Positions 9,136 through 10,175 of a stretch of DNA of 64,000 bases are shown one piece after another (the first letter of the stretch is position 1; each line of letters begins with the position of its first letter). The DNA lies in the NCBI GenBank assembly GCA_009838735.1, contig VXQZ01000014.1:1-64000 (forward strand), written 5' to 3'. The notes under the pieces are model-generated. The model searched no databases. It worked only from the letters and a program-made list of their open reading frames with translations, and was not told the origin of the DNA. A program made the position numbers and the translations under genes. Origin of the DNA: Chloroflexota bacterium (lineage in GTDB: Bacteria > Chloroflexota > Dehalococcoidia > Bin125).

Positions 9136-10032
9136 CTATCGAGGCTCGATCAGCTCGCCCAGCGATGTGTCCAGCGCGTCGGCGAGCTTCAGCGCCGCGC
9201 CGATCGTGATGTTCTGCTTGCCCTGCTCAACCGTGCCCAGGTAGGTGCGGTCGAGCCCCGCCGCCGAGGCCAGCCGCTGCTGGCTCCAGCCGCGCTCCTT
9301 GCGCAGCTCCTGCACCCGACGTCCCAGCGTGTCCAGCTGCGACTCCAGGGTGGGCCGGTTGCGGCGGATGCCGAGCAACTCCCGCGCTGCGCGCACCGCC
9401 TCGGACGGGTCCAATGAGACCAGGTCGGCGCCGGTCAGTTCAGGATGGTCGGCGGCGCCGATCCCGGAGCCGCCGACAAACACGGCCGGATGATGGTCGA
9501 GCGCCTTGAGCTGCGCGACCGCCGCCTGCGCCGTGCCGAGCCGATCCGAGTGCGATAGCGACAGGGCGACCAGGTCTGAACCGCGGTCCCGCACCAGCTC
9601 AACCAGGTCCGCGGTCGGCGTGTCCGGACCCAGATGGACGACCGCCCAGCCGTCGAAATGAAAGAGATCGGCGATCATCCGCGTCGCGACGAAGTGCATC
9701 TCGCCGCTCACGGCCGCCACCACCACTTCGGCGGCCACTTCGTCACGACGCCGCGTCGCGTCGCGAATGTGCGCCATCCGCTCGAGCGTCACGCTGGTCG
9801 CGTGATGCTCCCGGGCGACGCTCAGCTCGCCCTGCAGCCAGGCCTCGCCGACGACCACCAGGGCCGGTCCGAAGATCTGCACGTAGATCGCCTCGGCCGC
9901 GAGCCCGCGCTGGAGCGCATCCAGGACCACGCGTTCCGCCTCGCGGTCGTCGCCGGACAGCAACGCCGCCGTGTAGCGCTCGCGAAGCAGGTCGCTCTCG
10001 GGTTGCCGGTCCATCCGCTGGGTGCTTTCCAC
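9136..10032 (-). CDS. CarH-like cobalamin-binding photosensor module fused to C-terminal XRE-family HTH
   Basis: 298 aa; [18 protein letters not shown] contains Wx9EH; B12-binding [10 protein letters not shown]...[14 protein letters not shown]...VFVGGSG; C-term [42 protein letters not shown] = XRE HTH. GTG start. Confidence 0.88.
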
Positions 10033-10059
10033 AGCGTCTTGCTGACAGGCTGAATATAG

Positions 10060-10089
10060 TTGACACGATGTTGGATATCTACATATGCT
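10060..10089 (+). promoter_or_regulatory. Candidate sigma70-type promoter for FAS1 gene (TTGACA-N18-TATGCT)
   Basis: TTGACA 10060-10065, TATGCT 10084-10089, in short divergent intergenic region; a TATATT on the opposite strand overlaps. Confidence 0.45.
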
Positions 10090-10175
10090 CTGATGGACAT
10101 AGACCGCACGAGACGCGATATGTCCGTCCGGCGAGCGAGTCCGGACGCATGCCGACGCACGATTGGGAGGTCAAC

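Follow-up and report, generated by a model that had tools for sequence, protein, structure and literature searches.

The window, i.e., the whole 64,000-nucleotide stretch of Chloroflexota DNA that was analyzed, carries a gene whose product joins a CarH-like cobalamin domain (CBD) to a C-terminal helix-turn-helix (HTH) of the XRE family. A sequence-only reading had assigned this protein to the range 9136–10175. The regulator does lie there, but its gene is on the minus strand, with the ATG at 10014 and the stop at 9136; the plus-strand frame of that range has stops, and the 10015–10175 segment is an intergenic promoter region outside the coding sequence. An alternative GTG at 10032 would add six residues, giving a 298-residue form; relatives begin at the ATG. 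The features of the locus are collected in Table 1.

Table 1. Features of the regulator locus and its divergent promoter (window coordinates)
Feature	Position	Strand	Remarks
CBD-XRE regulator gene, 292 aa	9136–10014	minus	four-helix cap, Rossmann B12-binding domain, linker helix, XRE HTH
C-terminal XRE-family HTH (HTH_3)	9151–9312	minus	Pfam; PDB relatives C.AhdI, SinR
Rossmann B12-binding domain	9400–9726	minus	GEMH (H107, predicted lower ligand), GPDTP, S152, GG181-182; Pfam and alignments
Four-helix cap (B12-binding_2)	9763–9987	minus	GEAW and Wx9EH (W59, E69, H70), Leu60; Pfam and alignments
Promoter-like TAGATA-17-TATATT of regulator	10053–10081	minus	−10 overlaps the TGTCAACTATA 11-mer
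TGTCAACTATA, candidate operator/shared promoter element	10055–10065	minus	conserved spacing upstream in distant relatives; unique in genome
Promoter-like TTGACA-18-TATGCT of fasciclin gene	10060–10089	plus	−35 inside the TGTCAACTATA 11-mer
Putative inverted repeat GGACATA ... TATGTCC	10095–10125		near fasciclin transcription start; also in L004, L005
Lipoprotein with three fasciclin (FAS1) domains, lipobox LAVAC	10176–11717	plus	conserved divergent partner; Pfam
Pyrimidine-dimer DNA glycosylase (Pyr_excise)	11795–12241	plus	Pfam E 8.8e-24; 77 bp 3′ of fasciclin gene

The Pfam matches, numbered on the 298-residue form, are B12-binding_2 at 16–89 (4.9e-15), B12-binding at 103–211 (1.5e-13) and HTH_3 at 241–294 (7.6e-13). 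The HTH_3 match scores 48.7 bits against a cut-off of 23, which makes it a Cro/C1-type HTH, and Pfam finds no MerR domain at the N-terminus. Thus, the arrangement read from the letters, a C-terminal XRE HTH with no N-terminal MerR domain, stands. In an AF2 model of the regulator (pLDDT 90.7), a helix formed by residues 223–240 links the B12 domain to the HTH and continues into it. The best PDB fold matches of the model are photocobilin 8j2w, CtMerR 8jbs and TtCarH 5c8d, all at ≤4e-12. With the NCBIfam CarH equivalog, the regulator scores 80 bits, below the cut-off of 400.

The cobalamin domain and its family

The published signature of light-responsive cobalamin domains consists of GxxW, EH, GxxH and GxxxP; four proteins bearing it responded to light, and one without it failed to bind AdoCbl (PMC11796333). 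The regulator has the full signature, as GEAW, EH, GEMH and GPDTP. The residues are W59-x9-E69-H70, G104-E105-M-H107 and L128-G129-P-D-T-P133, followed by S152 and GG181-182. W131, E141, H142, H177 and LGPDTP of TtCarH are all preserved in the alignment. The Wx9EH of the CarH cap, and the GEMH and LGPDTP elements described earlier as closely matching CarH, are therefore confirmed, the last being identical in TtCarH. Together with the fold matches, these residues bear out the idea of a CarH-type photosensor core.

A sequence search returned 78 proteins, including the window's own, nearly all of which combine B12-binding and HTH domains, at identities down to about 41%. The sequence-only reading had proposed a domain-architecture search; 74 relatives of the same layout were aligned with the window protein, giving the 75 rows of the XRE-CBD alignment. 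G56, W59, H70, G104, H107, G129 and P133 are each found in 75 of 75 rows and E69 in 72, and at this level of conservation the signature residues are not due to chance. S152 and GG181-182 are likewise invariant.

The classic B12 motif is D/ExHx2G/P-x41-SxT/V-x22-27-GG (PMC9304148). The regulator matches it at E105xH107, the x41 spacing, S152 and GG181-182, and deviates from it in having Ala110 for Gly/Pro and SxS for SxT/V. Those two deviations aside, it agrees with the published definition of a CarH homologue, i.e., Wx9EH plus the B12 motif. The replacement of the glycine of ExHxxG by alanine had been singled out. The replacement is real (A110) but unremarkable, as the residue is Gly in 48 and Ala in 27 of the 75 proteins, and Ala is also present in two MerR-type CBDs. 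Judged from the alignments, the telling departure from TtCarH is the lost equivalent of histidine H132, which the sequence-only reading had not noticed, rather than Ala110.

The residue in question is Leu60. The H132 equivalent is His in 18 of 75 rows; it is usual on the deep branches of the CBD tree and lost in the window's subclade, where position 60 varies freely (V, A, T, M, G, E, L, R). In addition, R176 of TtCarH, which forms the CarH dimer salt bridge, corresponds to M106. H132, which provides the bis-His light state, is present in many CarH proteins but not all. TtCarH H132A binds AdoCbl yet mostly remains tetrameric after light, whereas an earlier study of full-length H132A, as quoted in the same paper, saw disassembly in light (PMC10442372). 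CtMerR has Arg at this position and nevertheless dissociates from tetramers into monomers on illumination (PMC11796333). With Leu at position 60, the regulator cannot adopt the bis-His light state of TtCarH; by analogy with CtMerR, a water- or Glu-ligated light state is more likely. With H132A TtCarH mostly tetrameric in light on the one hand, and CtMerR responding with Arg on the other, a light response of the regulator is therefore possible.

On the CBD tree, a single change accounts for all XRE-CBDs, which group together (SH-aLRT 82) near the MerR-type CarHs. The group spans Chloroflexota and several other phyla. It follows that the notion of a lone re-wired regulator has to be given up: the XRE-CBDs are a whole family with a single origin on that tree. 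Also collected were L050–L079, standalone cobalamin domains of about 215 residues, mostly from bins named for anaerobes. These keep GxxW, EH and ExH, have Asn for the Gly of GxxH in most cases, and have Glu at the H132 position.

Within the window's genus, the regulator occurs in 4 of 15 genomes, and this patchiness is why we regard it as an accessory function. Mis-binning or contamination is rejected because three other genomes of the genus carry the regulator at 74–77% identity and the MMPL-regulator-FAS1 gene order recurs in L004 and L005. The window's genome also has a gene for cob(I)alamin adenosyltransferase.

The divergent promoter and associated genes

The 11-mer TGTCAACTATA lies about 40–50 bp upstream of the regulator in 12 of 12 carrier genomes tested. 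A perfect copy is placed 47–51 bp from the estimated gene start in the window and on three other branches of the tree (the L009 group; L019/L027; L089/L090); the copy in L018 has one mismatch. These 12 carriers, from four genera, have one to three copies per genome, always including the site upstream of the regulator; in the window's genome that site is the only copy. The location of the element, spanning the fasciclin −35 and the regulator −10, would suit a repressor that closes both promoters. Since it overlaps likely promoter hexamers, part of its conservation may be explained by promoter constraint. A strong palindromic operator is absent from the window promoter and present in L009, L014 and L006. 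Tandem 11-bp TnnACA repeats like those of CarH were considered; the three TnnACA hexamers in the window promoter are spaced 18 and 16 bp apart and hence are not of the CarH type. An Rfam search of the window gave no match.

A divergent FAS1 gene accompanies 13 of 48 XRE loci and none of 50 control loci. Of 20 genomes of the taxonomic family, 4 carry the regulator, and these same 4 are the ones with the three-domain FAS1 gene; a partial, single FAS1 domain is all that two further genomes contain. Pyrimidine-dimer glycosylase genes lie close to the regulator in L010 and L042 as well, and L023 has a degenerate copy. Further along the window, a second fasciclin domain (13787–14176) is followed by a second pyrimidine-dimer glycosylase (14238–14858; 73% identical to the first). 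The fasciclin member of this second pair has just one domain, its frame interrupted by a stop. A comparable pair of fragments occurs in G407 (L123), a genome without the regulator. An MMPL-family transporter gene (6907–9135) is convergent with the regulator gene, and MMPL genes adjoin the regulator in L004, L005, L034, L038, L040 and L055. The association is not strict, and the MMPL gene was set aside as a part of the regulator unit. Type I restriction-modification genes HsdM, HsdS and HsdR are found at 29617–38607.

Neither FAS1 nor MMPL belongs to the classic light genes. Microalgae have FAS1 proteins, i.e., AstaP, that bind carotenoids during photo-oxidative stress (PMC10147662, PMC7477208). 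Photolyase has no match in the window's genome. The genome does have two adjacent genes of the phytoene/squalene-synthase family (SQS_PSY), which are probably HpnC and HpnD, for squalene, and not carotenoid genes, and so we make no carotenoid claim for it.

Several relatives have neighbors of a different kind. In L036, the regulator is followed after a 3-bp gap by a photolyase and then by a DUF2867-type SDR, the best plasmid matches of which are in the carH-ldrP-crtB-phr region of T. thermophilus pTT27. A DUF2867-type SDR adjoins the regulator in L017 and L055 as well. SRPBCC genes are beside it in L018, L038, L055 and L180 (the last assigned by similarity to the SRPBCCs of other loci, having no Pfam match), and DUF523/DUF1722 in L017 and L018. 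In L180, the conserved 11-mer separates the regulator from the divergently oriented genes for the SRPBCC, a flavin amine-oxidase-type protein and DUF1365. Two SRPBCC matches on plasmids had no light cluster around them. At least one light marker lies within 5 kb in 7 of 45 XRE loci; in two sets of other CBD loci the figures are 1 of 28 and 1 of 20, a comparison that is partly circular because the markers were chosen from the XRE loci. In the sole positive among the 28 (L080), the CBD is preceded by a long N-terminal part. Almost none of the marker genes were present at the MerR-CBD loci of other Chloroflexota, which served as a regulon comparison. Two further arrangements were seen. In a marine subgroup (L041, L043–L048), the XRE-CBD gene is followed by a transporter of the SBF type (bile-acid symporter family), not by light genes. 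In L020–L029 and L039, from bins named delta/Proteobacteria, the divergent gene has a weak DnaJ-like N-terminus, and a DUF1698 methyltransferase is nearby.

Function of the regulator

We propose that the regulator is an AdoCbl-dependent dark repressor that is relieved by green or blue light, with a probability of roughly 0.7. That it is a light-responsive regulator, as first read, remains the best interpretation given the signature, the fold and the light and UV genes beside relatives. These neighbors, i.e., photolyase and other genes for protection against UV or light, suggest that the family switches genes on in light. We infer AdoCbl binding, the light response, dark repression and the set of controlled genes, as follows. 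In the dark, AdoCbl would be held between the four-helix cap, through W59, E69 and H70, and the Rossmann domain, with H107 as the lower cobalt ligand. AdoCbl binding would favor CarH-type oligomers, pairing the XRE heads over TGTCAACTATA in the shared divergent promoter. So bound, the regulator would block the fasciclin gene, the dimer glycosylase gene behind it, and its own promoter. Green or blue light would break the Co–C bond; adenosine would be lost, the assembly would loosen, and both promoters would be freed. Several observations weigh against this proposal: R176 and H132 of TtCarH are not conserved, and H132A CarH mostly fails to dissociate in light; the window's genome has no photolyase match and its SQS_PSY pair is probably not for carotenoids; light genes adjoin only a minority of the relatives, and the window's own neighbors are of other kinds; and promoter constraint may account for part of the conservation of the 11-mer.

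Could the regulator instead sense AdoCbl availability? AdoCbl would then drive oligomerization and repression, the apo-protein would free the DNA, and photolysis would be incidental, especially in the window's subclade, which has lost the histidine of the bis-His state. The freedom of position 60 in that clade and the mostly tetrameric state of AdoCbl-bound H132A CarH after light agree with such a sensor, as do the absence of a photolyase from the window's genome and a fasciclin partner that is not a classic light gene. We nevertheless think it unlikely. The adenosyl-capping W, E and H are retained, and CtMerR still dissociates in light with Arg at the H132 position. Moreover, the genes beside the relatives examined include photolyase and dimer glycosylase but few related to B12 (in L033, one neighbor is possibly cobinamide kinase-like, judged by eye).

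The two other readings are less probable. In one, the regulator acts as an activator, either in light or in the dark with B12, and TGTCAACTATA is mainly promoter sequence. The overlap of the 11-mer with both predicted promoters would allow this, and LdrP beside carH in Thermus exemplifies light clusters with more than one regulator. The same single site, placed over a −35 and a −10, suits a repressor, and the CarH proteins described in the cited literature are all dark repressors; we thus hold an activator to be quite improbable. In the other, given the smallest weight here, the fold is kept and AdoCbl is no longer used, as in CarA, which retains the B12 motif without needing B12. Ala in ExHxxG and the lost R176 and H132 equivalents could be signs of such decay. 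CarA, however, lacks the Trp of Wx9EH, which is invariant in the 75 XRE-CBDs, as are the lower-ligand H107 and the GG motif.

Beyond the light-relieved dark repressor itself, a fuller proposal can be put forward, tentatively and at less than even odds. The XRE-CBDs would be a distinct branch of B12 photoreceptors, of single origin, with a C-terminal XRE domain in the place of MerR. The window's subclade would free its DNA in light without a bis-His switch, and would control a fasciclin lipoprotein, possibly an AstaP-like FAS1 pigment binder, and UV-dimer repair, not carotenoid genes.

A 2024 database mining study noted light-type CBDs fused to HTHs on both the N- and the C-terminal side (PMC11796333). 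The earlier remark that no characterized example of this domain order was known agrees, for XRE, with a literature search covering few of the subscription journals, which found no XRE fusion of a light-type CBD; the broader class of N- and C-terminal HTH fusions had already been mentioned. The photoreceptor principle is already known; what is new is a variant, the XRE branch, together with the fasciclin partner and the conserved promoter element. The XRE-CBD family is widespread and apparently unstudied. CarH serves as the model of transcription switching by green light and as a tool for optogenetics; a family in which the DNA reader is of another kind and sits at the opposite end would demonstrate the modularity of the B12 light module. 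The family would supply XRE-based green-light switches and, as some of its members have the His132 equivalent and others lack it, offers a natural comparison of whether the bis-His switch is needed for release in light. Fasciclin lipoproteins and pyrimidine-dimer glycosylase become possible light-controlled genes in uncultured Chloroflexota.

Comparison with known systems

The CarH/LitR proteins (TtCarH; 5C8D, 8C31) share with the regulator the AdoCbl-type CBD, Wx9EH, the ExH lower ligand, LGPDTP and the Rossmann plus four-helix fold. Photolyase and SDR genes occur beside XRE-CBD relatives as they do in the Thermus cluster. The differences are in the DNA reader, an N-terminal MerR domain in CarH and a C-terminal XRE HTH here; in H132, without an equivalent in the window's clade, and R176, replaced by Met (M106); and in the operators, which are tandem 11-bp repeats for CarH and a different conserved promoter element for the XRE-CBD family. 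CtMerR of Chloracidobacterium (8JBS/8JBT) has the CBD that, among solved structures, the family profile matches best (1.2e-32). It is light-responsive without His at the H132 position, and differs in having an N-terminal, MerR-type DNA-binding domain. The photocobilins (SasPcob 8J2W, AbDPcob 8J2Y) have the same type of CBD with the partner domain C-terminal, and Gln or Tyr at the H132 position. Their partner is a biliverdin-binding globin-like domain (plus GGDEF in AbDPcob), whereas that of the regulator is an HTH. The XRE and controller proteins C.AhdI and SinR resemble the 55-residue C-terminal HTH of the regulator in fold and sequence; they have no B12 domain and use other operators. Finally, the corrinoid methyl carriers (MtbC/MttC/MetH) share the two-part B12-binding fold. 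They differ in having no DNA-binding domain, and 7XCN has neither the adenosyl-cap W nor its EH in the alignment.
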